From positions 62,001 to 126,000 of the forward strand of contig NZ_MVBD01000010.1 in assembly GCF_002000055.1 (NCBI RefSeq): a DNA stretch of 64,000 nucleotides, in the 5' to 3' direction. The position numbers and the translations under genes are program-made. Source of the stretch: Marinicella sediminis (lineage in GTDB: Bacteria > Pseudomonadota > Gammaproteobacteria > Xanthomonadales > Marinicellaceae). Shown piece after piece: positions 480 through 62,491 of the stretch (positions are counted from its first letter, which is position 1; each line of letters opens with the position of its first letter). The notes under the pieces were generated by a model. That model was not told the DNA's origin, did no database searches, and was given only the letters and a program-made list of their open reading frames with translations.

Positions 480-1994
480 TTACTGAACATCAAAGGAACC
501 CACAAAGATCACATCAGGCAAACTGGTCATGGTACCAATACCCAATGCACCGGTTGAACCTTCAGGCGTGCTCAGCGATCTGCCCTGAGCTGCATCTTCA
601 TCTAAAAACAGATTGCCGCCGGAAAGTACCTGACTGTTGTTCTCCCAGACTGCCAGTTCCATGCTGACTTCAGAGCCTACTTCAATTTGCGCAAAAAAGG
701 CATTGGCATTGATCGGTTGTCCCGTACCATCGAAAAACAGACTGGTTGTGGCATCAACTGTGACACCCTGGATTTCGAGCATGGGTTGATTGACTGCGGT
801 AACCGCACCATCGGCACTGACGTCAGTTTCATCGGCATTACCCCGATCTCTGACCCGGGTCATGAAGAACTGCCCCTGACGATCTGTGAATCCCCTGACT
901 TCCACTTGAGCAGCAGCAGCCAACCCCTGGGAAAGAATGTTGTCTTCATCACGCATTTGGGGAGTGACCACAACAGTCTGACCCAAAATGGTGATTGATT
1001 CTTCAATCAACACATCTACAGGTTCAACCGGGGCTTCGAATTTGAACCGCACTTCAATGAACTCAACCACATCCGCAGAAATGTTACCGGTGATGGTATC
1101 CAGCAAGCCTTCAACTTCAACCTTCACACCCACATCAATGTCATCCGCTTCCCCATTAAGAAAGGTGGTGCCAGCATTGATGAGGATGGTTTGACCGGCA
1201 ATCGTAAACAAGTCATTCATATCGAGGTCTTCAAAGTCAATAATCCCCTCAAGTGCAACGGGAATTGTGCCATCAGGCGGGGTAACCAACTCTTCTGGCA
1301 CACAGGTGACATCTGTGACGGTGTTCAGGACAGAACCGGTGGTAAATACCGGGTCTGCCGTCGCAACGACTTCAACAAAATCTCCGTCAAGCAGGGTTCC
1401 ATCACAATCAACCGGAGTGACAGCACCCATGTCCACAACCTGCTCCTGAATATTAAAGACTGAACCAGAAAGTTGACTCACATAACCTGACAATTTCCAG
1501 TCTGTTAATGGTTGATCAAGGGCCTCAACCCGGGTCACCATCAAAGCTCCGTTGCTGTCTATAAAGCCACTGATCTTGAAATCATCACCCAAAATGATGT
1601 CTTGTAAACTCAAGTCATCTTTGAAAAATGTATCTGCTGTTATCAGACCATCAATGTTGAAAATCCTGAAAGGATCGGTGGATAAAACCGGGCCTTTATG
1701 GGTATTGATCAGATTGATTTCTTCAAGTGTTCCCTCAGTCAGGGTCGGGTTAACATCTGCCGCCACACGATAACGGATTTTATAGCCTGTACCACCTTGT
1801 CCGCGTGTTCTTGGTACCACCACACCATCTTCCAGCATGACGGTATTCTGATCCACGGTGAAGTTCCTCTGATAATTGATGGTTAAACCGGTACCACCTT
1901 GTCCGGTAATCACAGGCTGTGGTTTTTCTGCCACTACATTGAGAGAAAACACCATCAGCATGATGGCAACTGAGTTGAGTATATGGCGATTCAT
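480..1994 (-). CDS. Secreted DUF5666-type repeat protein with GSFD tail (cassette 1)
   Basis: A 504-residue exported protein. Residues 1-22 form a Sec signal peptide. Two copies of a GQGGTG hexapeptide flank a short conserved block near residues 31-70. The rest is a series of small beta-type domains with the DUF5666 signature of a 'VEV.G.....G...A..VE' rhythm. The C terminus is DVIFVGSFD plus two residues, related to the GFE/GFD tails of other exported proteins in this window. It is the second gene of a two-gene operon: its ATG overlaps the stop of the upstream DUF6502 gene (ATGA), so translation is probably coupled. A paralog with the same architecture lies at 5042-6526. Function unknown; surface or periplasmic location is inferred. 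Confidence 0.85.
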   Translation of the reverse strand: MNRHILNSVAIMLMVFSLNVVAEKPQPVITGQGGTGLTINYQRNFTVDQNTVMLEDGVVVPRTRGQGGTGYKIRYRVAADVNPTLTEGTLEEINLINTHKGPVLSTDPFRIFNIDGLITADTFFKDDLSLQDIILGDDFKISGFIDSNGALMVTRVEALDQPLTDWKLSGYVSQLSGSVFNIQEQVVDMGAVTPVDCDGTLLDGDFVEVVATADPVFTTGSVLNTVTDVTCVPEELVTPPDGTIPVALEGIIDFEDLDMNDLFTIAGQTILINAGTTFLNGEADDIDVGVKVEVEGLLDTITGNISADVVEFIEVRFKFEAPVEPVDVLIEESITILGQTVVVTPQMRDEDNILSQGLAAAAQVEVRGFTDRQGQFFMTRVRDRGNADETDVSADGAVTAVNQPMLEIQGVTVDATTSLFFDGTGQPINANAFFAQIEVGSEVSMELAVWENNSQVLSGGNLFLDEDAAQGRSLSTPEGSTGALGIGTMTSLPDVIFVGSFDVQ

Positions 1995-2857
1995 GAGTTT
2001 ACTCCGGTGAGTTGTGTATGGACTTCAGAAGACTGATCAACTGATTCCCCGTTATAAAAATAAAGCCCAACGCCCACGTAAGGAATCAGGTCATCCTGCT
2101 GGCTGTTGTCAGCATGTTGAATGAGGTGGGCCAGGTACTCATCCACTTCGTTGGCCAGCGACTGGCAACGGGACCTGACAAATGACTCAGCAATGTTGTA
2201 AAGACTGGCTGGTAATCCTTCATGATAGACAATGCGCTGAAATTTTGGCCCTGGTCGTTCTGGGTCTATGTTGTGATCGATGGTTTCCAGCAGGTATTGG
2301 GTTGAGACTCCCAGAAAATCAATTTTTTGAATGTCATCATCATCATTCTCTGTCAGGTAGTAGGGCTTGATCAGCTGCACTTGACCGTTTTTCACTTTAA
2401 CTGAACCGGATAACAATAAATCATCCAGTATAGAACGGTATGTGGCACCACCGGAATAACGATCTACCAGGGTTTTGAAATCAGTTTCATCAGAAGACTC
2501 CAAAGGGATGATACTGGCATGTCCCTGAGGGTCGAGAAACGCTTCATCTTCAACCCATCCCGTGAGTACCCTGACCGCCCGATGCCACTTATTGGGTTGT
2601 TCATCTTCATCAAACAAATCTTTTTTGATTTGGATATCTACCTGAGTTCTTGATAATCCGGTTATGACGGACATTCTTGACTTGGTGGGCGGCTTTCCAT
2701 TGATCCCAAAATGACGATCGGCAACATCCACATAAGTCCACCTGAGTACATCAGCTGCTTCATGGAATGGCACATTCAGCCGAAGCATGATCCGGACCAA
2801 TGGTCTGAAAACCTGGATCAGCATTCTTCTGATGGCGTTGTTTAAGGTGTTTTTCAT
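1991..2857 (-). CDS. DUF6502-family helix-turn-helix protein (cassette 1)
   Basis: A 288-residue cytoplasmic protein with the features of DUF6502. These are an N-terminal 'FRPLVRIMLR' segment, a 'GKPPTKSRMSVITGLSR' block that looks like a winged-helix recognition region (about residues 45-65), a 'VLTGW' motif, and a C-terminal helical part ending near a VPY-type motif. I prefer the ATG at 2857 because AGGGGA lies 7 nt upstream; the frame stays open further upstream to a TTG. It overlaps the secreted DUF5666-type gene by four bases. A role as its transcriptional regulator is inference from the fold and linkage. The paralog at 6531-7367 is similar along its whole length. Confidence 0.82.
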   Translation of the reverse strand: MKNTLNNAIRRMLIQVFRPLVRIMLRLNVPFHEAADVLRWTYVDVADRHFGINGKPPTKSRMSVITGLSRTQVDIQIKKDLFDEDEQPNKWHRAVRVLTGWVEDEAFLDPQGHASIIPLESSDETDFKTLVDRYSGGATYRSILDDLLLSGSVKVKNGQVQLIKPYYLTENDDDDIQKIDFLGVSTQYLLETIDHNIDPERPGPKFQRIVYHEGLPASLYNIAESFVRSRCQSLANEVDEYLAHLIQHADNSQQDDLIPYVGVGLYFYNGESVDQSSEVHTQLTGVNS

Positions 2858-3027: not shown

Positions 3028-4632
3028 ATGAGAACACGCACATTCAATCTATATATAATGATGGCACTGGCCTTGCTGGCCACTTTCAACAGTCACGCCA
3101 ATGATTTGATCATCACCAAGAGCTTTACCGGGGGCTGGTATGACCCAGCCAAAGATGGTCAGGGTTTCTTGCTGGAAGTCATTAAAACCAACAACCAAAA
3201 AAGAGCCCTTGCCACCTGGTACACTTATGACCAATCAGGCCAACAACTCTGGTTGATTGGAGTGGGAGACATCAACGGGCAATCCATTACATTGACCATG
3301 GCCATGACCAATGGCGGTCAATTCGGTGATGCCCATGATCCAAATGCCATCACCCGCTCAGAATGGGGAACAGTTACATTCACTTTCACCGACTGTAACC
3401 ACGGAATGGCCTCATGGAACCCCATCGTAGGCGGCTTCAGTGCAGGCTCTATGCCCATCGAACGCAACACAGCCATCAATAACCTCAATTGCACCGGAGG
3501 ATTATTTGATGAATTGGGAGACACCTTAACCAGCACCGACATCACCACCCCACTGGTAACCACAGGTGTTGACCCTGATGCCAATGGCAAAACCAGGTAC
3601 GAGCAGGAAACCGATCGCATTGATTACTCAGTTGAAATTGAAGATGTACCCATTGGATTATATGAACTGCATGTAGCCGGCATTTACAGGGGTGACATCG
3701 AAGTCAATGAAATCATTCCCGGAGTCACTGAAGGTGAAATTGAATTCAGAGATCCGGTGGAACCCGGCAAAATTCTATTGGATTTTGATCCCACAGGCCA
3801 GGAAGTAGAGATCATACAAAATGCTGTGGTATATTTAACCTCAGATACCACCGGAAATGGCGGTGGTAATAACAACACCAGTCCTGATGCACCTCCTTTT
3901 GGTAACAGTGAAACTGAAATCTATCTGACCAATCTGGGGTTGTTCCCATTGGGTGAAGCAAAAGCAGAACTGGAACAAAGGGCTGACCGGGTTGACTTTA
4001 AAGTGGAAGTTGAAGACGTGGACCCTGGTTTTTATGATTTCAGTGTTGACGGTGATGTCAAAGGCATCATTGAAGTGGTACAAACCGTAGCCGGAATAGA
4101 AGGTGAGCTGGAATTCAGAAACCCAGTAGAACCCGGTAAGTCTTTACTTGACTTTAATCCGCTGGGTGCACTGCTGGAAGTTTCTCAAGGTACACAGGTT
4201 TATTTCAGTGCAAACTTCCCAAGTGATCCAGGTTCTGGTGGTTCTGGTGGTTCTGGTGGTTCTGGTGGTTCTGGTGGCTCTGGTGGCTCTGGTGGTTCTG
4301 GTGGTTCTGGTGGCTCTGGCGGAAATGTTGAAATTGAAGTTGATTTTACCAACACCGGTCTGGATCCCGATGCCAGCGGATCCGTTGATTACGAAGTCAG
4401 ATCAGATCGCAGGGATTTTAAAGTGGAAGTTGAAGATCTGGCGTTTGGAGAATATCAGTTATTTGTGGGTGGTGTTGAGATCACTTCATTCACAGTTAAC
4501 ATGGCAGAAACTGAACTTGAGTTCAGAGATCCGGTTGAGACAGGCAAGCTGTTGCTTGATTTTGATCCATTGAACCAGGTGATTGAAGTCAGACAAGGAA
4601 CCGATACTTATCTCACCGCTGTGCTGCAATAA
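3028..4632 (+). CDS. Secreted three-repeat protein with Gly-Gly-Ser linker
   Basis: A 534-residue exported protein with a signal peptide (about 1-25). Residues 33-155 form a beta-rich domain with 'GGWYDP..DGQGFLLEV', 'YTYD.SGQQLWLIG.G', 'FGD' and 'F.DCN.GM' motifs, an arrangement recurring in secreted gammaproteobacterial proteins of unknown role. Three tandem repeats of about 100 residues follow (from about 171, 291 and 432). Each contains 'D.....VE.ED...G.Y', 'G..E.EFR.PVE.GK.LLDF.P' and '.V..G...Y'. Repeats 2 and 3 are separated by a flexible linker of ten GGS-type units. GAGGAA precedes the ATG. It ends in AVLQ, without the GFE-type tail. It sits between two DUF6502/DUF5666 cassettes. Binding or adhesion is only a guess. 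Confidence 0.85.
   Translation: MRTRTFNLYIMMALALLATFNSHANDLIITKSFTGGWYDPAKDGQGFLLEVIKTNNQKRALATWYTYDQSGQQLWLIGVGDINGQSITLTMAMTNGGQFGDAHDPNAITRSEWGTVTFTFTDCNHGMASWNPIVGGFSAGSMPIERNTAINNLNCTGGLFDELGDTLTSTDITTPLVTTGVDPDANGKTRYEQETDRIDYSVEIEDVPIGLYELHVAGIYRGDIEVNEIIPGVTEGEIEFRDPVEPGKILLDFDPTGQEVEIIQNAVVYLTSDTTGNGGGNNNTSPDAPPFGNSETEIYLTNLGLFPLGEAKAELEQRADRVDFKVEVEDVDPGFYDFSVDGDVKGIIEVVQTVAGIEGELEFRNPVEPGKSLLDFNPLGALLEVSQGTQVYFSANFPSDPGSGGSGGSGGSGGSGGSGGSGGSGGSGGSGGNVEIEVDFTNTGLDPDASGSVDYEVRSDRRDFKVEVEDLAFGEYQLFVGGVEITSFTVNMAETELEFRDPVETGKLLLDFDPLNQVIEVRQGTDTYLTAVLQ
4231..4320 (+). repeat. Ten-copy 9-bp tandem repeat encoding Gly-Ser-Gly
   Basis: Ten consecutive 9-bp units of GG[T/C]TCTGG[T/C] encode the Gly/Ser linker of the 3028-4632 protein. 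Seven units are identical and three carry a T-to-C change at position 3, one of them also changed at position 9. The unit is a multiple of three, so copy-number change would alter linker length without breaking the frame. Confidence 0.95.
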
Positions 4633-4639
4633 TTGATCA

Positions 4640-4679
4640 TGTGGACTGATTCGGAACCGCAGTTGCGAATCAGTCCACA
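4640..4679. terminator. Perfect 14-bp inverted repeat after the repeat-protein gene
   Basis: Arms 4640-4653 and 4666-4679 are perfectly complementary with a 12-nt loop. The structure begins 8 bp after the stop of the 3028-4632 gene. There is no T tract on the plus side, so it may be a weak or Rho-linked terminator or an RNA-stabilising hairpin rather than a classical intrinsic terminator. Confidence 0.55.
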
Positions 4680-4695
4680 GGACAGTATTTATGTC

Positions 4696-5041: not shown

Positions 5042-6526
5042 TCAGTCAAATGAACCGATGAAAATCACATCAGGTATGCCACTGATGGTACCCACTCCTC
5101 TGACTCCAGTACCCCCCTGAGCCCTGACGTTTAATGATTGCTCTGTTGTATCTTCCGGCAATTCAATTAAGCTCAACAGACCTCCGGACATCACCCCGGT
5201 CAGCGCATCCAGTGAAGCATCTTCGAGTTCGACCTCAGCACCAGCCACAATTAAATTAAAAAATGCATTTGCTGTTAAAGGCAAACCATCCTGATCAAAA
5301 AGCAGTGAGCTTGTGGTATCAATCTGTACACCAAACACTTCCAGAAATGGTTGATTGATCATGCTGACTTCACCATTCAGACTGACTTCGTCATAATTAA
5401 CCTGACCGAGGTTATTTATTTGGGTGATGTAAACCTCCCCTGCACCATAATCATACCCCCTGAACTGAATTTGTGTGGCTGTGGTCAAATTATTCAGCAC
5501 ACCATCTGGATCTTGGGTTTGAGGGGTTACCGTCAACACAATACCTGCAACCTGGAACTGGTTGCCTGTCTGATCTTCTGGTGTCACTGGAACGGTGAGG
5601 TTTACCCGAGGATCAATGAAGCGAATTTTATCTGCCAGCACATCTCCAGTCAGGTTATCAGCAGTCCCTTCTACCACCAATTGGATTCGTTCTTGCACAT
5701 CCACGGCTTTACCCCGGATGTATATGGTTTGAGGACCCACGTCAATGAACTGTCCGGCAATGAAAAAATCATCATCTGATTCAACCAGGTCAACCACCCC
5801 TTCGATGATCACCACACCATCATCTTCCTCAGGCAATACCTGCCGTTCAACACAGCCAATCCCGATCACAGAATTCACCGGGTCGCCGATGGCGAAGTTG
5901 TCAACAGGTGATGCCAAAACTTCCACAAAATCCCCTTCCAGCAAAGCACCGCCACAATCAACAAGATCAGCTGGCTGATAATTCACCAGCTGCTGACCGA
6001 TCGTGAATGATGAACCAGTTACCTGACTGACTGGTCCACTGAGTTTCCACTCATTGATGCTGTTGTCTCGTTCCAATCGGGTCATCAAGACCAATGACTC
6101 GGAATCAATGAAACCACTCACTTTGAGTTGATCGCCCAGTTTCAATTGATCCATGCTTAATTCATTATGCCAAACTGTTTTGCCCGTCATCAGGTTGTCT
6201 ACATTGAATATCCTCAGAGGTGATAATGACACCACAGGACCTTTATATATGTTAATGAGATTGACTTCGCTTAAGGTCCCAGACAACAGGTTCGGGCTGG
6301 TTTCGGTCACCCGGTATCTGATCTTGTAACCGGTTCCACCCTGGGCTTCAGTTCCCGAAACCGGATCACCATCTTCCAGAAAGACCGTGTCCTGATCGAC
6401 TTCAAAAGACCTGAGGTCGTTGATTTGATAGCCCGTTCCACCCTGCGCCCTGCTGGCATCGGTGGCTTGTGCAGATGATGCGCTTACAGTGAGGAAGAAC
6501 AGGCAAAATAATTGTGTATTTTTCAT
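5042..6526 (-). CDS. Secreted DUF5666-type repeat protein with GSFD tail (cassette 2)
   Basis: Paralog of the 480-1994 product with the same order: signal peptide, two QGGTG motifs around a conserved block containing 'GYKIRYRV', then DUF5666-type beta domains. A third QGGTG lies near the end, and the protein stops at DVIFIGSFD. I choose the ATG at 6526, giving 494 residues, because it yields a compact signal peptide (about 1-21, ending SSAQA) and lies 4 nt after the upstream stop. An in-frame ATG at 6553 would add nine residues and overlap the DUF6502 gene. The two copies have diverged clearly, so the duplication is not recent. Function unknown. Confidence 0.82.
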   Translation of the reverse strand: MKNTQLFCLFFLTVSASSAQATDASRAQGGTGYQINDLRSFEVDQDTVFLEDGDPVSGTEAQGGTGYKIRYRVTETSPNLLSGTLSEVNLINIYKGPVVSLSPLRIFNVDNLMTGKTVWHNELSMDQLKLGDQLKVSGFIDSESLVLMTRLERDNSINEWKLSGPVSQVTGSSFTIGQQLVNYQPADLVDCGGALLEGDFVEVLASPVDNFAIGDPVNSVIGIGCVERQVLPEEDDGVVIIEGVVDLVESDDDFFIAGQFIDVGPQTIYIRGKAVDVQERIQLVVEGTADNLTGDVLADKIRFIDPRVNLTVPVTPEDQTGNQFQVAGIVLTVTPQTQDPDGVLNNLTTATQIQFRGYDYGAGEVYITQINNLGQVNYDEVSLNGEVSMINQPFLEVFGVQIDTTSSLLFDQDGLPLTANAFFNLIVAGAEVELEDASLDALTGVMSGGLLSLIELPEDTTEQSLNVRAQGGTGVRGVGTISGIPDVIFIGSFD

Positions 6527-6530
6527 GGTT

Positions 6531-7367
6531 TTATAAAGGATTGTCATCATCATCGGCTTTGTAAAAATAAATACCCACTCCTATGTATGGCACCGTTTCC
6601 TGGTCTTCTTCAAGATCAGAATGCTGAATGAGGTGTTCAATGTATTCATCAATGTCGTTGGCCAGTTCCTGTGATTTTTTCCGGGCATAAGATTCTGCCA
6701 GGTTAGCCAGTGACTTAGGCAGCTTATCGTGTAATACGATGCGTTGAAACCGCGGAGCATCTCTCTCCGGATCGATGTTATGATCAATGGTTTCTAACAG
6801 GTATTGAGTTGACAGCCCGAGAAAATCAACATTCTGCATGTCATCGGGGTCATTTTCAGTCAGGTAATATGGTTTGATCAGCTCTACATTCTGCCCGACA
6901 TCCACCACCACAGCCCGTGCCTGTAATAGCTCATCAAGTATTGATTTATAAGTAGCTCCACCGGAATAAGTCTCGACCAGGTTCTTGAAATCAACACAAC
7001 TGTCAGATTCTATGGGAATGATTTTGGGCTTACCATATTGATCCTGATAGTTCTTGTCTTCAATCCACCCTGTCAAAACCCGTCCGGCCCTGTGCCATTT
7101 TCGGTGGCTGTTGTCAGGACTGAACATATTCAGCTTTAACTGTTGATCAACCTGTACCCTTGACAAGCCGGTGATCACAGCAATACGGGATTTGGTCGGT
7201 TTCTTGCCATGCAAACCAAAATACCTGTTTGACACATCCACATAGGTCCACTTCAAGATATCGCTGACCACATGAAATGGTACGTTTAACCTGAGCAGAA
7301 TCCGTACCAATGGCCGGAAAATCTGAATCAGCATTTTCTTAACGATGTCTATCAATTCTGCCGTCAT
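6531..7367 (-). CDS. DUF6502-family helix-turn-helix protein (cassette 2)
   Basis: A 278-residue paralog of the 1991-2857 product. It has the same 'FRPLVRILLRLNVPFH', 'KPTKSRIAVITGLSR' and 'RVLTGWIED' blocks, a 'GATYKSILDELL' segment, and a C-terminal helical region containing 'STQYLLETIDHNIDPER'. The central block reads like a DNA-binding helix-turn-helix. It is the first gene of the second cassette, with the secreted DUF5666-type gene directly downstream. A role in controlling that neighbour is inferred from linkage and from the conserved pairing. Confidence 0.82.
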   Translation of the reverse strand: MTAELIDIVKKMLIQIFRPLVRILLRLNVPFHVVSDILKWTYVDVSNRYFGLHGKKPTKSRIAVITGLSRVQVDQQLKLNMFSPDNSHRKWHRAGRVLTGWIEDKNYQDQYGKPKIIPIESDSCVDFKNLVETYSGGATYKSILDELLQARAVVVDVGQNVELIKPYYLTENDPDDMQNVDFLGLSTQYLLETIDHNIDPERDAPRFQRIVLHDKLPKSLANLAESYARKKSQELANDIDEYIEHLIQHSDLEEDQETVPYIGVGIYFYKADDDDNPL

Positions 7368-7525: not shown

Positions 7526-9298
7526 TCAGAGGGTAATCTCGTTGGTACATACGGATGTTGAGCCTTCTTCACAGACCTGGAACGTATAAGAGGAGTTCTT
7601 GTTCACAGAGTATGAAACAGACCCATCATTGTTGGTGGTGTTGTTATACACACCGTTGATATATACATCAACATTGGTTGTGCTGCCACCAGTCCATGAC
7701 AGGTTGGCCTGACGACCACCTTTCGAACGATCACCATTCAGTGCCATCTCACCGGTTGGTGGCTCAGGATCGGTACCACCGCCCTGACAACCATTGGCGG
7801 TCAGATAATCACTGGCGTCTTTGGCTTTCACAATACCGTAGCCGAAATACACGTCTTTACCAGCGGCACCGGCATCAGCTGCCGATTGTTTCAGGGCATC
7901 CCTGATTTCCTGACCGGTACAAGTCGGGTGATTCGACCAAACCAAGGCTGCTACGCCAGCCACAGCAGGTGTGGCCATAGACGTACCACTCATATAGCCA
8001 TAATCACTGGCTCCGACTGAAACAGTAGCTGTTGAAGCACCCACTAAGTATGTACGGTCTTCCAAAGCAGCACCCACAGCAGGGATGCTGGTATTGTTGG
8101 GATCACCTAAAGTACCATACAGCATACCAGGTTCATTGTTGATGATGATAGCACCCACACCGCCAGAGTTTTCACAGTTGGCCACTTTGTCATGAAATGA
8201 GATGTTGCCACGATCGATCATACAAATCTTACCGTTGGCGCCACCATCAGTGGCTTCAGCGGTACCCATGAAGTACGTTGAACCACTGGCAAAACCCAGA
8301 TTCTCCATGGCCGATGAAGCCACTCCAGCACCGTCAGCAGTGGCTGCAGACAAAGTTGCCATACCTGCTGGGTATGTGGATAAAGTATCCACACCGCCTG
8401 CAGTGACTTCAACACAGATGTTTTCATCATTGCGAACATTTTTACCACGACCAGTTTCACAGCTTGGGAATTGAGAAAAATCAGCGATGTTGTTATCGGC
8501 GTCATTGGCACCGATCATCATCACTGATGAATATCCAGCAGGATATGAACGGACAGAGTTACCATCGTTACCAGCAGCTGCCAGGACCAGACCACCGTTG
8601 GCGATGAAGGAATCAAAAGCATTTTCTTCAACCGAATTAGCGCCACCGCCACCCAAACTCATGGTGATGATGTTGGCCCCGGCATCGGTACATTTTTGTG
8701 CGGCATGGGCCAGATCTGATGAATAACCCCAGCCTGCTGCATTGAATACTTTGATGATGTGCATGGGTACGCCAGGGGCCATACCGACCACGCCGACGTT
8801 GTTATCTTCAGCACCGACTGTTCCAGCCACATGGGTACCATGCGGGCCACCATTGTCGAACCAGTTACCTGTACCCGGATCATTATCTCCAGTGATAACG
8901 CTCCAATCAAAATCATTGTTAGTGGCATCCAGACCTGAATCAATCACACACACTTTTTGTCCTGATTGCAGGTTAAGCTGGTCAGCCTGAGACTGATACA
9001 CTGCATAAGGTGTCAATTGTTGCAATGTGGGATCTCCCGCGTCATCGTTGTAGACAGACAATGCATAACGTATGGCATCGGCTTCCATTTTCTTGAATCC
9101 ACCTTTACCACGCATGGCGCTTTTACCATTTTCATCGAGTTCAACAGCAAACCAACCGTCACCTTCAACCAACACCTGGTGGCCGTTTTTCAGACCTTGT
9201 CCATTGTTGTCGTAGGAAACAATCATACGCTCGGCTTGAGCGAAAGTACCCAGTGCCAGCATGGTAGCGACACAGGTTTTCTTCATCGTGAATTTCAT
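7526..9298 (-). CDS. Secreted subtilisin-like serine protease (S8) with PA insert
   Basis: A 590-residue exported protease with a signal peptide (about 1-22). The catalytic triad is visible as Asp120 (VIDSG), His153 (HGTHVAG) and Ser440 (GTSMATP), with the oxyanion Asn in AAGND near 243. A protease-associated (PA) insert lies between about 330 and 430, ahead of the serine block, as in several alkaline subtilases. After residue 510, a Gly/Pro linker leads to a fibronectin-like C-terminal domain with two Cys residues. GAGAGAGG precedes the ATG, and the gene has its own terminator. It lacks the GFE-type tail. Extracellular proteolysis for nutrition is the family expectation. Confidence 0.93.
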   Translation of the reverse strand: MKFTMKKTCVATMLALGTFAQAERMIVSYDNNGQGLKNGHQVLVEGDGWFAVELDENGKSAMRGKGGFKKMEADAIRYALSVYNDDAGDPTLQQLTPYAVYQSQADQLNLQSGQKVCVIDSGLDATNNDFDWSVITGDNDPGTGNWFDNGGPHGTHVAGTVGAEDNNVGVVGMAPGVPMHIIKVFNAAGWGYSSDLAHAAQKCTDAGANIITMSLGGGGANSVEENAFDSFIANGGLVLAAAGNDGNSVRSYPAGYSSVMMIGANDADNNIADFSQFPSCETGRGKNVRNDENICVEVTAGGVDTLSTYPAGMATLSAATADGAGVASSAMENLGFASGSTYFMGTAEATDGGANGKICMIDRGNISFHDKVANCENSGGVGAIIINNEPGMLYGTLGDPNNTSIPAVGAALEDRTYLVGASTATVSVGASDYGYMSGTSMATPAVAGVAALVWSNHPTCTGQEIRDALKQSAADAGAAGKDVYFGYGIVKAKDASDYLTANGCQGGGTDPEPPTGEMALNGDRSKGGRQANLSWTGGSTTNVDVYINGVYNNTTNNDGSVSYSVNKNSSYTFQVCEEGSTSVCTNEITL

Positions 9299-12671: not shown

Positions 12672-13901
12672 TTAATCCTCAAACCCGTTTTTAAATATCG
12701 GACATTCTCCATCTAAGCTGCCTTGTATTCGATTGCCTAAGTCAAAAACATCATCTGTGTTAGCACCATTGTTATCTGTGTTATCGGCTGAGTTATTAGT
12801 GAAGGACACGCCACAGCCTGATACGGTTGCTAATTCAGATGGCATACCTTGATTATTACCGTTTGAATTGTTTGTTGAGTGAAGAATAAAAATGCCCCCG
12901 CCTAATCCTTTTGCAGTACCATCACTTAATGCTGTACTGTTACTGATGGTGACATTCTCCATCCTTAAAGAACCGCTACGAACAAATACAGCACCGCCTA
13001 ATCCAGCTGAATAGCTCAATCCAGCTGCATATCCTGCTGCACCATCCGCTAAACCGGTTCCACCACCTGCACCAAATCCTCCGTATCCGCCATAAGGATC
13101 AACATAACCATAACCGTAACCTTGACTGCCTTGACCACCACCTCCACCAAAGCCACCACGACCACCAAAATAGCCTGAGCCACCACCGCCACCAAATCCA
13201 CCTTGTTGCCCATATAATGTTGCATAACCGCCAGTTCCAAACATGGCATCATTGTTTTGGTAATTACCATAGCCACCATAACCACCTATGGGTTGCATGG
13301 CATCACTGTCACCAAATAAACCACCACCACTGTTGCCAGCCGCATTACCGAACATGCCGCCACCGCCATTGGCATAATTGGTGACAACAGAACGGTCACC
13401 GCCAACTGCAACTGAGTTATCAATGGTGACATTGTTTAATTTGACATCACCATCATAAATAAACAAAGAACCACCCATGCCAGCGCCTGGTGCGCCACCA
13501 GTCCCTCCAGTATTACCGCCTTTTGCACTTGAATTTGCCAATGTAATGTCCTTAATTTGGACATTACCAGATTTTACAAACAAAGGTCTAAATGCATTTA
13601 ACCCACTTATTGTTCTTACCATTTGATCACTCTGCAAAGTAACATCTGAATCAATTAGACGCTTCATTACTCCACTAAAACCAACATTGGTGTTTAAGAT
13701 AATCGTATCATGACCCGGGTTGCTATTGGCATCCAAGATGGCTTTACTCAAAGTACCAGCCACTAAACCTGTACCATCATCAACGGCTTCGGTCACCGTA
13801 AATTCAGCTGCTTGCAAACCCAAAGGCAAACAAGCAGTGATCGCACTGAACAAAACTTTGTTTTTCAATTTAGAACCATTGTTTCTGTTTTCACTTGTCA
13901 T
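12672..13901 (-). CDS. Secreted Gly/Tyr-rich beta-helix protein with GFE tail
   Basis: A 409-residue exported protein. After a signal peptide (about 15-32) comes a CSLREA-like N-terminal block ('FTVTEAVDDGTG...LSKAILDAN'). A parallel beta-helix pattern follows, with 'RPLFVKSGNVQI', 'GMGGSLFIYDG' and 'GGAVFVRSGSLRMENVTISNS' rungs resembling polymorphic outer-membrane proteins. A central segment (about 180-290) is dominated by Gly with many Tyr and Phe. The protein ends CPIFKNGFED. AGGGGA precedes the ATG. It lies between a longer paralog upstream and a sulfotransferase downstream. It is probably an extracellular structural or adhesive protein; no enzymatic motif is visible. Confidence 0.85.
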   Translation of the reverse strand: MTSENRNNGSKLKNKVLFSAITACLPLGLQAAEFTVTEAVDDGTGLVAGTLSKAILDANSNPGHDTIILNTNVGFSGVMKRLIDSDVTLQSDQMVRTISGLNAFRPLFVKSGNVQIKDITLANSSAKGGNTGGTGGAPGAGMGGSLFIYDGDVKLNNVTIDNSVAVGGDRSVVTNYANGGGGMFGNAAGNSGGGLFGDSDAMQPIGGYGGYGNYQNNDAMFGTGGYATLYGQQGGFGGGGGSGYFGGRGGFGGGGGQGSQGYGYGYVDPYGGYGGFGAGGGTGLADGAAGYAAGLSYSAGLGGAVFVRSGSLRMENVTISNSTALSDGTAKGLGGGIFILHSTNNSNGNNQGMPSELATVSGCGVSFTNNSADNTDNNGANTDDVFDLGNRIQGSLDGECPIFKNGFED

Positions 13902-13918: not shown

Positions 13919-16168
13919 TTATTCAAACCCATTTTTAAAAATTGGGCAATCTGTCATGGTTATCCGACCACCCTGATCGAACCAATCATTGTTGTTATTA
14001 GACGTGCCTGCTGAGGTAGAAGCTAAATTGTTGTTGAATTGAACATCGCAAATCTCAACATCTGGCAATTGGTCAGGCATACCTTGGTGATTACCATTTT
14101 GATTGCCTAAATCATGCAAAACAAAAACAGCGCCTCCAAAGCCAGCCGCTGTACCACCATCGGCTGTGTTGTTGTTAAAATTTGAACCTTTGATGGCTAC
14201 CTGACCACTCCTGATAAAAACAGCGCCACCCATGCCTGCACCGTCATCAGTGGCGCCGAAACCAGGGTTATCTTCACTGCCACCGCCAAATCCTCCACTA
14301 CCTACACTTCCTGGCTGAGCCTCATGATTACCCCCGCCTCCTCCAAAGCCGCCATCACCACCGGATTCTGCGTAACTTAAACCTCCGCCACCACCAAATT
14401 GACCATTTTCACCAAAAAAATTGGCTTCACCACCATCTCCACCATTTCCAAAAGAGCCATAATAACCTCCATAGCCAGCCCCAAAAAAACCATTCGCAGA
14501 AGCAAATAAACCACCGCCTCCACCAAGACTGGTGCCACTACCAAACATGCCTCCACCGCCATTTAGATTAACTACTCCCGAACCACCAATGGCAGATGAA
14601 AAACTGAAATGGGAGTCTTCAATCGTAACAATACCTTCATAAATAAATAAACTGCCGCCCATACCAGCTCCGCCGGAATGGCCATCTCCGCCTTTGGCAT
14701 AGCCGTTAATCATGTCCACTCCTTGAATGGATACAGTGCCTGACTTAATAAACAGGGGTCTGTATTGATCGTTACCACTGATGCTTCTTCGAGTGCCATC
14801 GCTTTGGATGGTCACATTGGAGTCAATCAAGCGTTTCATCACACCCGTTATGGTCACATCGGTTGCCAAAGTAATGGTGTCATCACCGAGTAAGGCATTG
14901 GACTCTTTGATCGCCCAACTGAGGGTGTTATCAGTCATGCCTGTGCCATCATCATTACCGACTGTCACGATTAAATTTTGTTCCAGTGGGCAAAGCTGGG
15001 TTAAATCTTCAGCCAAGTCACCTAAGTCAAAGACATCATTGTCATCATCGGGTACACCTGATGAACCCGATGCAAAATTGTTGGCAAATGTATTGCTGCA
15101 GCCTGTGACACTGGCGAGTTGTGCTGGCATGCCTTGATGGTTACCGTTGCTGTTGGTGGTTGAATGCAACACAAAAACACCACCACCCAGTCCTTTGGCT
15201 CCATTGTCTGCCAACGCAGCATTGTTATTGAAATTCGAGTTGCTGATATGTACTTGACCTGCTCTTATGAAAATTGCACCTCCCATCCCTGCCGACGCAC
15301 TGTAGGAAGCTCCATAGCCCGGAATGCCACTGTTGCTGCCATAAGAGCCCGCATAAACTGCACCCGCTCCAAAACCACCATTTCCAGCCACGTTATTACC
15401 AATGGTATCAGCGCCGCCACCACCAAACCCACCATGTCCTGAAGGCCAGCCGCCACCACCACCAAAACCACCGCTTTCAGCTGGTATATTACCCGTGTAA
15501 TCACCGCCAGTACCAAAATCCGGGGTGGTGTTTTGATAGTTACCATTCCCCCCATAACCACCATAATTACCACTGCCTGAAGCAAACAGGCCACCACCGC
15601 TGTAATTGCCAGCATGACCCAACATGCCTCCACCACCTCGTGTGTATGTACCGGATAAATCATCACCACCAAGAGCAATGGAGGTATTAAAATCAACGTT
15701 GTTGATGCTGACATTACCGTCATAGATAAAAAGCCCTCCTCCCATACCGGAGCCTGGAGCACCAACACCAGAATCCCCACCTTTGGCCAGTCCATTATCA
15801 ATGTTCATATTTTGCAGGGTAACCGTGCCGGATTTTATGAACAAGGGCCTATAAGTTGCATTGCCGTTAATATAGTGGCGATTATTGCTGTCGGCACTTT
15901 GGATGGTCACATTTGAATCAATCAACCGTGTCATTACACCATCTGATATGACATCAGTGTCTAATATGATGGTGTCATCGCCAGGTGTTGTGTTGGCTTG
16001 TGCAATGGCCCAACTCAGGGTGTTAACCACATTGCCTGTACCATCATCATACTGTTCACTCACGGTAAAATTTGCAGCCAATAAGGAACAGGGCAAGCAC
16101 ATCGAAATGGCACTGGCTAACAGACTTCTTTTTTGGGCTTTATTTGAGGTTTCTATTCTTTGACTCAT
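13919..16168 (-). CDS. Secreted two-unit Gly-rich beta-helix protein with GFE tail
   Basis: A 749-residue exported protein built of two tandem units (about 32-385 and 390-749). Each resembles the whole 12672-13901 product: CSLREA-like block, beta-helix rungs, Gly/Tyr/Phe-rich middle, and 'GGAVF...GNHQGMP' region. It ends CPIFKNGFE. I choose the ATG at 16168 because the 21 residues before the signal peptide then align with the start of the paralog; an ATG at 16216 adds 16 residues without a better ribosome site. It is first in a three-gene run with the paralog and the sulfotransferase, with a 17-bp gap to the next gene. Surface fibre or adhesin is a guess. Confidence 0.84.
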   Translation of the reverse strand: MSQRIETSNKAQKRSLLASAISMCLPCSLLAANFTVSEQYDDGTGNVVNTLSWAIAQANTTPGDDTIILDTDVISDGVMTRLIDSNVTIQSADSNNRHYINGNATYRPLFIKSGTVTLQNMNIDNGLAKGGDSGVGAPGSGMGGGLFIYDGNVSINNVDFNTSIALGGDDLSGTYTRGGGGMLGHAGNYSGGGLFASGSGNYGGYGGNGNYQNTTPDFGTGGDYTGNIPAESGGFGGGGGWPSGHGGFGGGGADTIGNNVAGNGGFGAGAVYAGSYGSNSGIPGYGASYSASAGMGGAIFIRAGQVHISNSNFNNNAALADNGAKGLGGGVFVLHSTTNSNGNHQGMPAQLASVTGCSNTFANNFASGSSGVPDDDNDVFDLGDLAEDLTQLCPLEQNLIVTVGNDDGTGMTDNTLSWAIKESNALLGDDTITLATDVTITGVMKRLIDSNVTIQSDGTRRSISGNDQYRPLFIKSGTVSIQGVDMINGYAKGGDGHSGGAGMGGSLFIYEGIVTIEDSHFSFSSAIGGSGVVNLNGGGGMFGSGTSLGGGGGLFASANGFFGAGYGGYYGSFGNGGDGGEANFFGENGQFGGGGGLSYAESGGDGGFGGGGGNHEAQPGSVGSGGFGGGSEDNPGFGATDDGAGMGGAVFIRSGQVAIKGSNFNNNTADGGTAAGFGGAVFVLHDLGNQNGNHQGMPDQLPDVEICDVQFNNNLASTSAGTSNNNNDWFDQGGRITMTDCPIFKNGFE

Positions 16169-16216
16169 TTGTTTCACTTGATGGTAAGTAGATGCTTTTA
16201 TTCGGTTACCCTTCAT

Positions 16217-16598: not shown

Positions 16599-19500
16599 TT
16601 ATTCAAATCCGTTTTGGAAGATGATGTCATTCTGACTTTCAAAAGCACCGATATCCCGTGCTGCTCCATAAGTTACAAAGCCTCTTTGATCATGAGTTGT
16701 GGCGTTCATATCACCGCCATCAATACCATCACTGCCTGATAGCAGGGCATGAGTCTGAATGCAACTGCCATCTGTCAAAGGCGTGGCGCAGCCGTTGTCC
16801 AGCAGTGGCCCGACACTGAGGGTCATGGACTCGGTGATGCCGGCAGTTGTACAGTCATTTGCATCCTGATCTGACAGGTTATTATGACCGAACACATCGC
16901 CGCCGCCAAAATATGCACAGTCTGCAGTGGTGCTACCTGTGTTGTTATAGAACAGAGAGTTGTTCAGGGCGCTGATGGTACCATACTCATTTCCAACTGC
17001 CCCACCAAAATCGCCAGTTACATTATCTGAAAAAGTGCTGTTGTTTATTTCAGTAATGGTTCCAGTATAATTGTAAATTGTCCCACCACTACTACCTGTA
17101 TTGTTAGAAAAAGTACTGTTGTTTATTTCAGTAATGATTCCTTCATTCCAGATTGCTGCAGCCCCAAGAGCCTGATTTGATGCCAGCAAGCTGTTATTGA
17201 CAGCTAAAGTACCTTCATTATAAATCGCACCCCCAAAAGATAAACCTCCAAAACCATCGACACAACTGTGTTTTAATGAGATGTTTTTCAGATCAAGATT
17301 TCCAGTACTGGAAATCCTTAATAAGCGAAACTCACTGGTATCAAGTGTATTATCATTGTTACAGGTTAAAGAACTGTTTCTTTGCAGTGTATGTCCCATA
17401 CCATCAAGGATGATGGCGGAGGTGATGGGCGCTGTGGCTGTGTGGCCATAGGTTGTATGGTTTTCATAGAAGCTGTTGTAGGTGATATCAGCATCAAGAT
17501 TAATGGTGTCTGTGGTTCCTGTATTTGCATTGGCACAGATAATCGCCTGGTTGAGTTCAGCTGTGTTGGATACTGTTTGTGTAAAAATCATGGTAGTATC
17601 TATACCCAGTTGGCTACATTGTTCAGTTTTAGATAAATACTCATAAGCACCGATGTCACGTTCATCAATGGCAGCAAACCCTCGCTGATCGGTTGGGTTA
17701 TCAACCAATGCACCTGATTTAATCGCCTCACTACCTGTCAACAGGGCATGAGTTTTAACACAACGACCTTGAGAAAGCGGTGTAAGACAGCCGTTATCAG
17801 CCAGCGCGGCAACGGAGGCAGTGGTTAATGTTCCAACATTGGGACAACCACTTGAAGAACTATCAGAAAGATTGTTGTCACCATTGAATGTTCCTGTTCC
17901 TGCACATTCTGCAACGAACATGCTACCATCGGTGGATTGGTGTAGCAGGTTATTCGCTAAATACATATTCCGGCTGCTGAAAATCACACCACCACCATCA
18001 GGAACCGCATTCCCTGAAAATGTACTGTTAATGATTATTCTGGGAACTATGCTGGGAGAGTCGTTATTCCACAAAGCGGCCCCCTCGACAGTTGCCACAT
18101 TAGTACTGAAGGTTGAGTTGGCTATACTGGTGATTTCCCCATTGGCATAGATGGCGCCTCCCTTTCCTGACTGGTTGGCATAAAAAGTACTGTTTATGAT
18201 GCCATTAATGGCATTGATTTCATTACTGTGCTGGGATTCATCCAGAGTATAAATACCACCGCCGACCAGGTAGGCCTGGTTGTTGTTTAAACTGCTGTTT
18301 GAGATGCGTAAGCTTCCATCTGCAAAATAGATACCGGCTCCGATGCCATCATGGCCTGCACCATCAGCACAACCATTTTCCAGGGTGATGTTGTTCAATT
18401 CTACATCACCTCCAGTGTCTATCAACATCAGGCGAAATTCACCAGCATCACTGGTGCCATCGTTATTACAGGCATTGCTGTTGGATAAGGCATAACCCTG
18501 ACCATCAATAACCATTTCGGAGGAGATTGTCGCAATACCTACCGGACCCAAAGGAAAATCAGCGGGAATACCTGTCATGGCATTATCAGTATAGGCAGTG
18601 CTTAAATTGATGTCGGCTGATAAATTAATGGTATCTGAAGCAGGTCCGTTAACATTGGCACATTCTATGGCTGTATTAAGTGCATCTGCACTGGCAACTG
18701 AAGTGGTAAAACCATCACCCAAACCCAATTCGTTACAAATTTCTGAATCTGCCAGATACTCAAAAGCCCCTATATCCCGACTGTTACCAAAAACAGGAAA
18801 ACCTCTCTGGTCATGAGTTGTGGCGTACATATCGCCGTCATCTCTGCCATCACTGCCTGGTAACAAGGCATGAGTCTCTATACAACCGCCATCTGCCATT
18901 GGAGTCACACAACCGTTGTCAGCCAAGGAGCCAACATTTAAGCTCATGGACATGGTAATTCCAGCATTTGTACAGTTATTTGAATCTTGGTCAGACAGAT
19001 TATTGCCACCTGAAACCGAGCCAAAGTTCAAATTACAATCTGCATTGGTGCCCGTATTATTATGGAATAGTGAGTTGCTCAGAGTTGTGATGGTGCCATT
19101 ACTGTAAATTCCCCCACCTCTAGAAGCTGTATTTCCTGAAAAAGTGCTGTTGTTTATTACAGTGATGGGGCTAGTATTGTAAATTGCCCCACCATTTTGA
19201 GATGCCGTATTGCCCGAAAAACTGCTGTTGTTTATTTCAGTAATGGCACCTTGATTCTCGATTGCACCAGAATATTGAGCCTGGTTTGATGCCAGCAAGC
19301 TGTTATTGATAGCTAAAGTACCTCGATTATGAACCGCTCCCCCAAAAGATGGGTTACCATCACCACCAGCACAACCGTGTTTTAGAGCGATGTTTTTCAA
19401 ATCAAGATCTCCAGCACTGGAAATTCTTAACAAGCGAAACTCACTGACATCAAGTGTATTATCATTGTTACAGGTTAAAGAACTGTCTCTTTGCAGCGTA

Positions 19501-19835: not shown

Positions 19836-19991
19836 TTTGGTTCTCCCAATTAAACATACAGGTGCCAACAAACACCCCACCTAACTCATAAAGCGAGAAA
19901 ATTACTTATAAGTGCCAAATTGTTTTTTAATTGAGTTTGCCAGCGATTTGACGGTGACCCATAATGATGTTTTGAAGAGGTATTAAGGCAG

Positions 19992-47268: not shown

Positions 47269-47346
47269 TTCAACACCGTACTGTTGATTGTCTCCATCGG
47301 GCATCTGAGCTATGATCATGACTTTTCCCGGGCTACCGTTGATATT

Positions 47347-48810
47347 ATGAAACACACCTTACTCTATTTGACTGTACTGATCAGCACAGAAGTCACTGCG
47401 CAGAACTGGCAAGGAAAAGCATCTCAAACCCTACTGGACCAGCTGACGCAGACAGAACAGGTTGAGATGCTGGTTACTTTTCATGCACCAAAGGTCCCGT
47501 TGAACAGTGGTTCGTTCAACAACCACACGGATCGTCTTCAACACCAGGTTTCTGTGTTAAAAAATCAGACGCGCCTGGCTCAACAGCAGGTCATCAAGCA
47601 CCTCGAGTCGCAACAGATCATTTACCGCTCATTCTGGATCAACAACAGTTTGCTGGTGACTGTCAACCAACAACAAATGGCTGAGATACTGGAGTTTGAT
47701 GAAATTAAATCAGCTCACAGCAACCTGCCTCATCAAATCAACATACCAAACGCCAATGGCTCAGCTGTCAAAAGCATCAATGGCATCGAATGGAATGTCA
47801 GCATGGTCAATGCCCCACAGGCATGGGGGTTGGGGCACACAGGTCAGGGAATAGTTGTGGCTGGCCAGGATACTGGCTATCAATGGAATCATCCAGCCAT
47901 CATCAATCAATACCGTGGCTGGGATGGACAAACTGCTGACCACCATTACAACTGGCATGACAGCATCAACAACCCCACCGTAAGTTGTGGCAGCGCGCCT
48001 TGTGATGATCATGGGCATGGCAGTCACACCATGGGTACCATTGTGGGCGATGATGGCGGCAGCAATCAGGTGGGTGTGGCCCCTGATGCACGCTGGATTG
48101 GTTGCCGCAATATGGATGTCGGCAATGGCACACCCGCAACTTATACTGAGTGCTTTCAGTGGTTTATGGAACCCACAGACCTGAATGGCAACAACCCTGA
48201 CATCACCAAAGCTCCCCACATCATCAATAACTCCTGGGGCTGCCCGGGTTTTGAAGGCTGTACAGAACCAGATGTCTTGTTGAACACCGTAGAAAACGTA
48301 GTAGATGCCGGGATACTGGTGGTGGTTGCCGCCGGAAATGACGGCTCATCCTGTCAAACCATAAACACCCCTGCTGCCATTTATCAGGCCAGTCTAACGG
48401 TTGGCTCGACCACCAGCAGCGATGTGATTTCGGGTTTCAGCAGCCGTGGGCAAATCACGGTAGATGGTTCCAATCGCATCAAACCCGACCTCTCTGCACC
48501 TGGCAGCTCTGTGCGATCAGCCAATAATTCCGGAAGTTATTCAACCTTCAGTGGCACCAGCATGGCTTCTCCTAACGTTGCCGGTGTTGCTGCACTGGTG
48601 ATGTCTGCCAACCATCAAATGATTGGCCAGCCACGAATGGTTAAGCATATATTGACTCAAACCGCTGTGGCCAAAACGACCAACCAGGATTGTGGTGGGG
48701 TCGATGGCAGCAGCATTCCGAACAACACATATGGCCACGGCAGAATTGATGCTTTGGCAGCAGTCAACTATGCCCGGGATCTGATTTATTACCATGATTT
48801 TAATGAATGA
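47347..48810 (+). CDS. Secreted subtilisin-like protease with FNE tail
   Basis: A 487-residue exported S8 protease. The signal peptide is about 1-18 and a propeptide-like region about 25-130. The catalytic domain has Asp175 (AGQDTGY), His224 (HGSHTMG) and Ser405 (GTSMASPNVAG), with the oxyanion Asn in AAGND near 331. Paired Cys residues suggest disulfides. It ends DLIYYHDFNE, a divergent version of the shared hydrophobic-x-x-[GSD]-F tail. The ATG at 47347 was chosen because it starts the signal peptide; upstream codons to 47284 read poorly. It overlaps the open frame of the next small gene. Confidence 0.9.
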   Translation: MKHTLLYLTVLISTEVTAQNWQGKASQTLLDQLTQTEQVEMLVTFHAPKVPLNSGSFNNHTDRLQHQVSVLKNQTRLAQQQVIKHLESQQIIYRSFWINNSLLVTVNQQQMAEILEFDEIKSAHSNLPHQINIPNANGSAVKSINGIEWNVSMVNAPQAWGLGHTGQGIVVAGQDTGYQWNHPAIINQYRGWDGQTADHHYNWHDSINNPTVSCGSAPCDDHGHGSHTMGTIVGDDGGSNQVGVAPDARWIGCRNMDVGNGTPATYTECFQWFMEPTDLNGNNPDITKAPHIINNSWGCPGFEGCTEPDVLLNTVENVVDAGILVVVAAGNDGSSCQTINTPAAIYQASLTVGSTTSSDVISGFSSRGQITVDGSNRIKPDLSAPGSSVRSANNSGSYSTFSGTSMASPNVAGVAALVMSANHQMIGQPRMVKHILTQTAVAKTTNQDCGGVDGSSIPNNTYGHGRIDALAAVNYARDLIYYHDFNE

Positions 48811-60906: not shown

Positions 60907-60970
60907 AGAGTCACGCGGTTAATCCATAGGGTATTGTGCACCATTTCGGTTCTGCAGTCAGCTTATTAAA

Positions 60971-62491
60971 TCAGTCAAACCCGGTGGCAAAAACCAATTC
61001 TCCAGGATAGGCCAGTATGTGGGTGGTGTTCACCGCCGGCGCCCATAATTGGCTGCGAATGCCATTGGGCCAGATCACTTCAACACGGTCTATGGTTGCT
61101 GCACCCAGGCCGAAATGCGGTAATAAGGAATTCCCGGCACCGTGACTGCCGCCTGAAACCACCTGATCAATCAAAGTATGCTGAGATGAGGTGATCACTG
61201 ATATCCGGCTGCCAATGGCCAGACTGTTGATGTCACCACCTCCGGTTAGGTTAAATTTAACCCAATTATGATTGCTTGGATTGATGTTGCGGTAGAGCAT
61301 ATAATTGGTACCCCAGTTACCCACCACCAGGTCCACCTTACCATCGTTGTCATAATCACCTTTGGCAGCACCAACCGTCATATAAAGGTCTTCAATGCCA
61401 CTGAACACGGTGGCATCATTAAACTGACCCATTTGATTGCTGATGTACAACCGGTCTCTTTTACTTGGAGTCACATTGGCGGTGGCCAGATAGGCATCCG
61501 GATAGCGGTCATTGTCCACATCCATAAAGAGGGTGGCCCAGCCAGTGGCATCAAAATTCAGACCAACCGCATTGGATTGGTCGGTATACCAGGGATTACC
61601 CTGGCTGAATTGAGACTGTAACAAGACCTGTTCGGCAATGCTGGAAAAATAAAAATCAAAATCACCATCCAAGTCATAATCGGCGATGGCAATGCCCATA
61701 CCATCAACCGGTCTGAATGTTTGTGTCGCGTTGCTCACATCAACCATACAGACATATGTGCCACAGCCATTGACAGCAGGACCATCGTTACGCCACAGGG
61801 TATTGCCTTCCTGCTTGTCATTGACCACGTATAAATCCATGTCACCATCCGCATCAAAATCGATGAACTGAACCGCCAGACCATGTTTAACCAAATTGAT
61901 CGCAGGGCTCAAATCAGCAGTGACATCAATAAATCCCATGCCCTGGTTATTTAACAACAGCTGATCAGCTTCATTCAGGTCATTTTCCACGCTGTAATTC
62001 ACCACATATACATCCAGCCAGCCATCGTTGTTGATGTCGGCCCAGGATGAGGCAATGCTGTAACTTGAATCCGTCAAACCAAGCGCTGTGCTGACTTCTT
62101 CGAAGGACTGGCCACCGATGTTTTTCAGTAATTTATTGGGTCCAAAGCTGCTGATAAACAGGTCCTGAAAACCATCGTTGTTGTAATCAGTTACAGCAAC
62201 ACCAAAATCGTGACTGTTGGGTAACTCACCAGCCACATACTGGCTGTCAATGACAAAGCCGCCACTTTGATCGTTCAACAGAATATGATTGGCACCGTTT
62301 TGATTGGTCAGGTACAAATCAAGGTAACCATCACCATTGATGTCGGTCCAGGCTTGCCCCATACCGAGCTCACCATTTGACAGGCTATGATCAGCATTGA
62401 TCAATGGAGAAAAATCAACATGTAAAAAATGATCCTGACCGGCTGCAGAAGTCAAAGAAAACATCATCAATGCAAAAATCAGTTTTAACAT
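60971..62491 (-). CDS. Secreted CRTAC1-type FG-GAP/ASPIC-UnbV protein with GFD tail
   Basis: A 506-residue exported protein (signal peptide about 1-18). Repeated 'DINGDGYLDLYLTN', 'DYNNDGFQDLF', 'DIDNDGWLDVYVVN'-like blocks are calcium-binding FG-GAP repeats building a beta-propeller (about 30-400). A C-terminal ASPIC/UnbV domain follows with 'NWVKFNLTGG' and 'VEVIWPNGIRS'. The protein ends ELVFATGFD, another member of the tail family. CRTAC1-like proteins in bacteria are surface or secreted; their role is unclear. Confidence 0.9.
   Translation of the reverse strand: MLKLIFALMMFSLTSAAGQDHFLHVDFSPLINADHSLSNGELGMGQAWTDINGDGYLDLYLTNQNGANHILLNDQSGGFVIDSQYVAGELPNSHDFGVAVTDYNNDGFQDLFISSFGPNKLLKNIGGQSFEEVSTALGLTDSSYSIASSWADINNDGWLDVYVVNYSVENDLNEADQLLLNNQGMGFIDVTADLSPAINLVKHGLAVQFIDFDADGDMDLYVVNDKQEGNTLWRNDGPAVNGCGTYVCMVDVSNATQTFRPVDGMGIAIADYDLDGDFDFYFSSIAEQVLLQSQFSQGNPWYTDQSNAVGLNFDATGWATLFMDVDNDRYPDAYLATANVTPSKRDRLYISNQMGQFNDATVFSGIEDLYMTVGAAKGDYDNDGKVDLVVGNWGTNYMLYRNINPSNHNWVKFNLTGGGDINSLAIGSRISVITSSQHTLIDQVVSGGSHGAGNSLLPHFGLGAATIDRVEVIWPNGIRSQLWAPAVNTTHILAYPGELVFATGFD

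Follow-up and report, generated by a model that had tools for sequence, protein, structure and literature searches.

The question raised by a 64,000-nucleotide stretch of the Marinicella sediminis genome (contig NZ_MVBD01000010.1, positions 62,001 to 126,000; hereafter the window) is why eight of its exported-looking proteins end in variants of one short C-terminal peptide, [IVL]-[FY]-x-x-[GSD]-F-[DE]. The sequence-only reading of this stretch had proposed that the tail is a sorting signal on exported proteins, possibly read by a component of the type II secretion system (T2SS), and comparative evidence from related genomes supported this proposal. The tail is probably a short linear C-terminal export tag for one class of T2SS, designated class A, a conclusion reached from patterns of sequence and gene content.

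Occurrence of the tail beyond chance was evident from searches performed with a strict DNA pattern (I-F-x-x-G-F-[DE]-stop) and its reversal as a control. The strict pattern gave 18 matches in the M. sediminis genome versus none for the control, and a broader pattern gave 39 versus 9. Among 61 genomes (this genome and 60 relatives), the strict pattern was present in 49, in up to 42 copies, versus 7 control matches in total. Outside the order but within the same class, the tail pattern was found in 30 of 364 genomes (31 matches) and the reversed control in 16 (17 matches), which is at most about twice the control and therefore near chance there. In this sample, the tail was almost exclusive to a single order, that of Marinicella, Dokdonella and their relatives. 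A stricter pattern applied to named genomes marked at least 119 stretches, and the locus-based tail counts given below rest on these listed matches. Among the matches listed, isolates were of Marinicella, Dokdonella and Pseudofulvimonas, metagenome assemblies were titled Lysobacterales, Rudaea, Rhodanobacteraceae, Gammaproteobacteria, Proteobacteria and Alcanivoracaceae, and single records were titled Sedimenticola (L129), Bacillota (L130), Planctomycetales (L162) and others. The odd titles of the last three are possibly those of mis-binned or mis-named contigs, or these records may reflect transfer.

The anatomy of the tail was read from 87 tails in 80 of the 119 loci, and position was counted over all 119. 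With few exceptions, the 87 tails followed the form D-[L/V/I]-I-F-x-[N/D]-G-F-E, with the leading D present in 86. The search pattern had fixed most of these positions, and the free information lies in the mixture of L, V and I, the mixture at x and the absence of conserved residues before D. In looser matches from the M. sediminis genome, F could be preceded by V or L and the G position could be taken by N, S or D, and the form noted in other families of the order was [ILV]-F-x-x-G-F-[DE]. The motif was exactly terminal in 87 open reading frames (ORFs), 12 more copies were followed by 1–12 extra residues, and none lay deeper than 12 residues from the C terminus in the 213,082 residues of the 119 loci. 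The suggested check for enrichment at extreme C termini thus located the motif only within 12 residues of the end; the loci had been picked for having a tail, and only the absence of deep copies is informative for position. Tandem double tails, for example IFKNGFESDIIFKDGFE, were noted at the C terminus of proteins from L014, L084 and L414. A transmembrane helix, scored as a 19-residue stretch with a mean hydropathy of at least 1.6 within the last 45 residues, was found in 0 of 87 tail proteins, as expected from the claim that the tail has no transmembrane segment, and a basic cluster (at least two K or R in the last 8 residues) was likewise found in 0 of 87. The remark that no named family was known for the tail also held, in that NCBIfam models matched the tail in none of the eight whole window proteins. 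No match was obtained with the eight tail peptides as queries, although HMMER filters may drop queries this short, and no paper on such a tail was present among the matches listed in a search of open-licence literature for the motif, its hosts and T2SS signals.

The proteins that carry the tail were diverse and were mostly of the exported type. After removal of the last 15 residues, 95 tail proteins (87 fetched and the 8 from the window) fell into 47 clusters, the largest of which had 16 members. Enrichment on signal-peptide proteins, proposed as a check on the sorting-signal idea, was found with a strict rule, which was passed by 66 of 87 tailed proteins versus 153 of 543 neighbouring ORFs. 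The signal-peptide rules were home-made, lax at first and stricter in later versions. The lax rule, passed by 57 of 62 tail proteins, was dropped for the stricter ones because background ORFs passed it too often (192 of 361). The tail was noted on a few twin-arginine proteins of the DUF1501 type, and a regular expression for the twin-arginine (Tat) signal matched 1 of 87 tail proteins. The occurrence of the tail on Sec and some Tat proteins suggests, therefore, that it acts after the inner membrane has been crossed by either route. Among 70 DUF1501 proteins read from 104 matches by a non-random choice (40 of 70 from tail-positive genomes and 30 of 34 from other genomes), tails were present in 9 of 40 from the former genomes versus 0 of 30 from the latter, three of which showed the look-alikes IFVDEFESL, SLNGFES and SRIGFEA (families f7 and f9).

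A search across genomes for a co-occurring export gene, also proposed earlier, showed that the tail tracked one T2SS class among 299 genomes. GspC, which serves type II secretion as the clamp in the inner membrane, was sought with profile PF11356 in the 61 genomes, and the search was extended to 299 genomes of the order. Matches with E<1e-10 were scored as strong, which excluded 13 weak matches, and the lists of tails and GspC as well as the within-family counts were tallied by hand. Strong GspC was present in 68 of 73 genomes with at least three strict tails (absent from 5) and in 50 of 226 genomes with fewer (absent from 176), an association with a Fisher probability of 1e-28 when relatedness is ignored. 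Contrasts within families matter more than this overall count. Thus, in family f2, at least two tails were present in only 2 of 78 genomes (G475 and G600), both of which had strong GspC and gave 20 and 26 matches, respectively, with a looser pattern versus 0 for the control; another f2 genome, G610, had a GspC match below E 1e-10. In family f12, all 10 of 76 genomes with at least three tails had GspC, 63 had neither and 3 had GspC only (G593, G620 and G638). In family f1, the sole genome of a sister genus (G018, 100% complete in 2 contigs) had no tails and no GspC, GspD or GspG match. PF03934 was rejected as a T2SS marker, this 63-position model having matched 56 of 61 genomes as well as several control genomes such as those of Lactococcus lactis and Bacillus subtilis, and was uninformative. 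Tail genes showed no strong physical clustering near gsp genes, with 3 tails over 290 kb and a single one over 180 kb.

Association of the tail with one kind of T2SS, rather than with type II secretion generally, was evident from GspD and GspG. A GspD match was obtained in 77 of 78 genomes tested; among tail-negative genomes, G018 had none and the best match of G033 reached only 1.7e-59. Because most tail-negative genomes tested keep an Xps-like T2SS, the tail follows the GspC-type system and not the T2SS as such. A tree of GspD from 49 of 78 loci (the 29 left out being short loci fetched for gspC) separated class A, which adjoins GspC, from class B, and 20 of 20 GspC-linked GspD from genomes with at least three tails were class A. 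The GspD of tail-negative f2, f8 and f12 genomes in this tree were class B or of an Xcs-like type, the latter (from f2 genomes and G638) forming a branch beside class A that came from genomes without tails. The names Xps, for the class B cluster, and Xcs-like, for the GspD of f2 genomes and G638, are presumed assignments. GspD of both class A and class B were present in the M. sediminis genome, where the cluster of the class B protein was read as E-F-G-H-I-J-K-L-M-N-D from gene order, gene size and GspG and GspD matches. Similarly, two GspG above the cut-off were noted in 9 of 9 tail-positive genomes, one at 178–191 bits (class A) and one at 91–115 bits (class B), versus at most one, of the lower-scoring kind, in GspC-negative genomes. 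Both kinds were present in G038 and G040, which have GspC and no strict tails. The class A GspG lay within a gspG-H-I-J-K cluster, followed in G037 and G522 by what appeared by eye to be L-M-N. The presence of class A and class B GspD and GspG side by side therefore indicates two machines per cell in the genomes studied closely, with the tail linked to one of them.

These associations suggest the following route. Tailed proteins would pass the inner membrane through Sec or Tat and then fold in the periplasm, where the exposed tail, typically D-[LVI]-[IVL]-F-x-[ND]-G-F-[ED] with 0–12 further residues, would deliver them to the class A T2SS. This machine, encoded by gspC-D-E-F and its own gspG-H-I-J-K, would carry the tailed proteins across the outer membrane, and the tag could sort cargo between class A and class B in one cell. 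That the tail drives secretion is quite likely. The likeliest reader would be the DegS-like PDZ domain at the C terminus of class A GspC, to which the tail may be added as a beta strand; this domain matched DegS models (E 3.9e-7). Some T2SS cargo is described, in an excerpt of PMC12369372, as dependent on the GspC PDZ domain; excerpts of PMC12369372 and PMC7949064 further describe this domain as required for secretion of VesB in Vibrio and, in Dickeya, as a binding partner of an Fn3 loop in PelI. That the class A GspC PDZ domain reads the tail is nevertheless a tentative proposal, with somewhat less than an even chance of being right. Much the same degree of doubt attaches to the full picture, in which a nine-residue, transplantable peptide alone would mark folded Sec or Tat proteins for one of two T2SSs and would be read by the GspC PDZ domain, with lineage dialects (GFE and DRFE) that co-evolved with the machine. 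A residue of the GspC PDZ domain (V/L as opposed to Y/F) was tried as a marker of the tail and failed in family f8, in which G496 and G524 are tailed and have GYRI. The link between tail and PDZ residue was not sustained, and the identity of the reader is therefore a guess.

Variant tails were sought in some GspC-bearing genomes that had no strict tails. In 400 kb of G429 (family f9, class A; L361–L380), 6 of 329 ORFs ended in [LVI]-F-x-D-R-F-E with 0–5 further residues, and 2 of 114 ORFs of G038 (family f7) ended in VFADGFE or IFVDEFESL, as opposed to 0 of 157 ORFs in G444 (family f2) and 0 of 214 in G018. The G429 ending appears to be a lineage dialect of the tail.

Several observations weigh against the export-tag proposal or parts of it. 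The cut of E<1e-10 for strong GspC was chosen after the data were seen, and the Fisher probability, which lacks phylogenetic correction, over-counts co-occurrence on the tree. Five of the 73 genomes with at least three tails were without strong GspC (G015, G016, G448, G480 and G575), and one of these, G480, had 3 tails, no GspC match, a completeness of 98% and a best GspD of class B. Conversely, the 50 genomes with strong GspC and fewer than three strict tails include G468, G504, G527, G543, G593, G620 and G638, which, like G480, were left without explanation; several of the unexplained genomes with GspC and no strict tails belong to families f8 and f12, and one of them, G504, stayed at 0 tails with the looser pattern. 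The regular expression for variant tails was widened after the first variants were seen, and variants were absent from G447 (0 of 141 ORFs) and other loci of family f9 (0 of 81). Genomes outside the order, whether T2SS users or not, were at most at twice the control, and 31 of 40 DUF1501 proteins read from tail-positive genomes had no tail. With respect to the reader, the motif is mostly terminal, but 12 of 99 copies were followed by 1–12 residues and the f9 variants by 0–5, which weighs against a PDZ ligand that strictly needs a free carboxylate; no co-varying GspC contact was found, the candidate PDZ residue having broken down in f8, and the reader could be the product of a different class A-linked gene.

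Some of these results would be equally well accommodated if tailed proteins left the cell by the class A T2SS on the strength of structural signals and the tail served to hold them at the surface or to be trimmed, in the manner of GlyGly-CTERM among T2SS users, since a surface-attachment or processing tag would track the T2SS just as closely. The choice-of-anchor Q domain that precedes the tail in window protein 16599–19880 is of interest in this regard, as choice-of-anchor domains are named for standing before varied anchors. Proteases held at the outer membrane were also inferred by the authors of work on Wenzhouxiangella AB-CW3, according to an excerpt of PMC7691419. The absence of a transmembrane helix and a basic cluster from all 87 tail proteins is contrary to such a role, however, as is the count of cysteines near the C terminus (4 within the final 45 residues, from only 3 of the 8 window proteins), so that no general thiol chemistry is indicated. 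In addition, no conserved gene of unknown type was seen, and no special gene stood out, beside gspC-D-E-F or gspG-K on the basis of BLAST clusters and inspection by eye, with crude ORF calls for these GC-rich loci. A surface or processing tag is thus unlikely, with perhaps a minor share of the probability.

Explanations that make the link with the T2SS indirect fared less well. The tail might serve quality control or a chaperone in the periplasm and be read by a different PDZ protein, of the DegP, DegS or Prc type, given that DegS and other bacterial PDZ proteins recognize C termini and that the class A GspC PDZ domain resembles that of DegS. DegP and Prc are, to our knowledge, near universal, whereas the tail was nearly limited to genomes with a class A T2SS in one order, and a degradation tag on many proteins is implausible; this role is therefore very improbable. 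An equally slight chance is given to lineage history, by which gene-end shuffling would have spread the tail within one clade without any role in trafficking and the T2SS link would reflect ancestry. Near confinement of the tail to one order of the sample, and the sharing of tail and T2SS among relatives, are what such a history would produce, but joint presence and absence of tail and GspC within f1, f2 and f12, the distribution of tail-protein bodies over 47 clusters, and placement at the C terminus with enrichment on exported proteins are not. An export tag for the class A T2SS is the preferred explanation.

In the window itself, all eight tails were present at the positions given in the sequence-only reading, as judged from an ORF listing in which the ends of 46 ORFs were read. 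On the reverse strand, they terminate DUF5666 protein 480–1994 (tail at 480–512), its paralogue 5042–6553 (43% identical; VIFIGSFD, 5042–5068), exported protein 12672–13901, which has no Pfam match (PIFKNGFED, 12672–12701), its paralogue 13919–16216 (about 47–50% identical over matching parts; PIFKNGFE, 13919–13945), choice-of-anchor Q/PMP-repeat protein 16599–19880 (IIFQNGFE, 16599–16625) and FG-GAP/UnbV protein 60971–62491 (LVFATGFD, 60971–60997). Those on the forward strand terminate amidase/golvesin-domain protein 28706–31531 (VIFANSFD, 31505–31531) and S8 protease 47284–48810 (LIYYHDFNE, 48781–48810), the latter a loose match that may not belong to the motif. The description of the first tail required correction, in that the motif VIFVGSFD is present but the protein ends in VIFVGSFDVQ, two residues beyond it. 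Similarly, the eight proteins, said to be unrelated, are indeed of different families but comprise six families (DUF5666, the pair without Pfam match, choice-of-anchor Q/PMP-repeat, amidase with golvesin, S8 protease and FG-GAP/UnbV) with two pairs of paralogues, and the claim that all carry signal peptides held for 8 of 8 by the lax rule, which 192 of 361 background ORFs passed too. In 3 of the 8 proteins, a named domain stopped 10–22 residues before the stop codon and was followed by the tail. The choice-of-anchor Q domain (NF041518) of 16599–19880, for example, had its best stretch at residues 1037–1083 of 1093, and Pfam UnbV_ASPIC in 60971–62491 stopped at residue 490 of 506. A Marinicella marina relative of 28706–31531 (L110, 70% identical) had the tail VIFEDGFE.

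At least three exported-looking window proteins, identified by eye, are without the tail (3028–4632, 7526–9298 and 62606–63475), so the tail is not universal on exported proteins, and a relaxed form was noted in no further window ORF among those kept in the signal-peptide scan. One of the three, 7526–9298 (reverse strand), is another S8-type protease, whose start resembles a signal peptide, and provides a natural contrast to tailed protease 47284–48810. Another, 62606–63475 (forward strand), ends in VPTNNKVMLATLAGALGLIALFLMRRKAII, which comprises a motif, a transmembrane helix and a basic cluster; it had no NCBIfam match, presumably resembles a sorting signal of the IPTL/VPxxP type and appears to represent another type of C-terminal signal within the window. 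Genes 1991–2884 and 6531–7367 (reverse strand), which are alike at their starts and ends, each adjoin one of the DUF5666 tail proteins and appear to form with them a duplicated two-gene unit.

How the T2SS recognizes its cargo is an open question in the field. If the export-tag proposal is true, a shared cargo peptide would open recognition to tests that use binding of peptides, mutagenesis or transplanted tags. For Marinicella, Dokdonella and their relatives, a large part of the secretome would then be predictable from sequence, and a small tag for export of folded proteins is conceivable. Among known systems, the C-terminal domain (CTD) of type IX secretion is similar in that a C-terminal signal serves for crossing of the outer membrane after Sec. 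That signal is, however, a folded domain some 80 residues long and found in Bacteroidota together with Por/Gld genes, whereas the present tail is of about nine residues and occurs in Gammaproteobacteria. In 3 of the 8 proteins from the window, a different named domain reaches to 10–22 residues from the end. The C-terminal peptides of outer membrane proteins (ligands of the DegS PDZ domain and the BAM beta-signal) are similar in having an aromatic residue near the C terminus and in being read in the periplasm but differ in that the tailed window proteins with named domains are of soluble types (S8, FG-GAP/UnbV and amidase) and that the last residue of the tail is usually acidic. GlyGly-CTERM, the rhombosortase system, also involves short C-terminal homology on signal-peptide proteins with otherwise unrelated bodies, of which one genome has several, in Vibrio and other Proteobacteria; as described in part of PMC3237569, it consists of a motif, a transmembrane helix and a basic cluster and is cut by a rhomboid protease, whereas the present tail has neither helix nor cluster. 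PEP-CTERM with exosortase and LPXTG with sortase are likewise C-terminal recognition tags on exported proteins of unrelated fold, but these are described in the same part of PMC3237569 as tripartite with a transmembrane helix, which the present tail lacks. The tail would work like a C-terminal sorting tag and yet is without the defining helix and basic cluster of LPXTG, PEP-CTERM and GlyGly-CTERM and without the domain size of the type IX CTD. The tailed proteins resemble T2SS substrates in having a Sec or Tat signal peptide and in occurring with a T2SS (strong GspC) in 68 of 73 genomes with at least three tails. As with cargo read by the PDZ domain of GspC (OutC with PelI and EpsC with VesB), they would be folded in the periplasm with involvement of that domain, but recognition in those cases, as far as excerpts of PMC12369372 and PMC7949064 describe it, is of loops or domains of the Fn3/Ig type and involves no common linear sequence, as opposed to the one linear peptide noted here.

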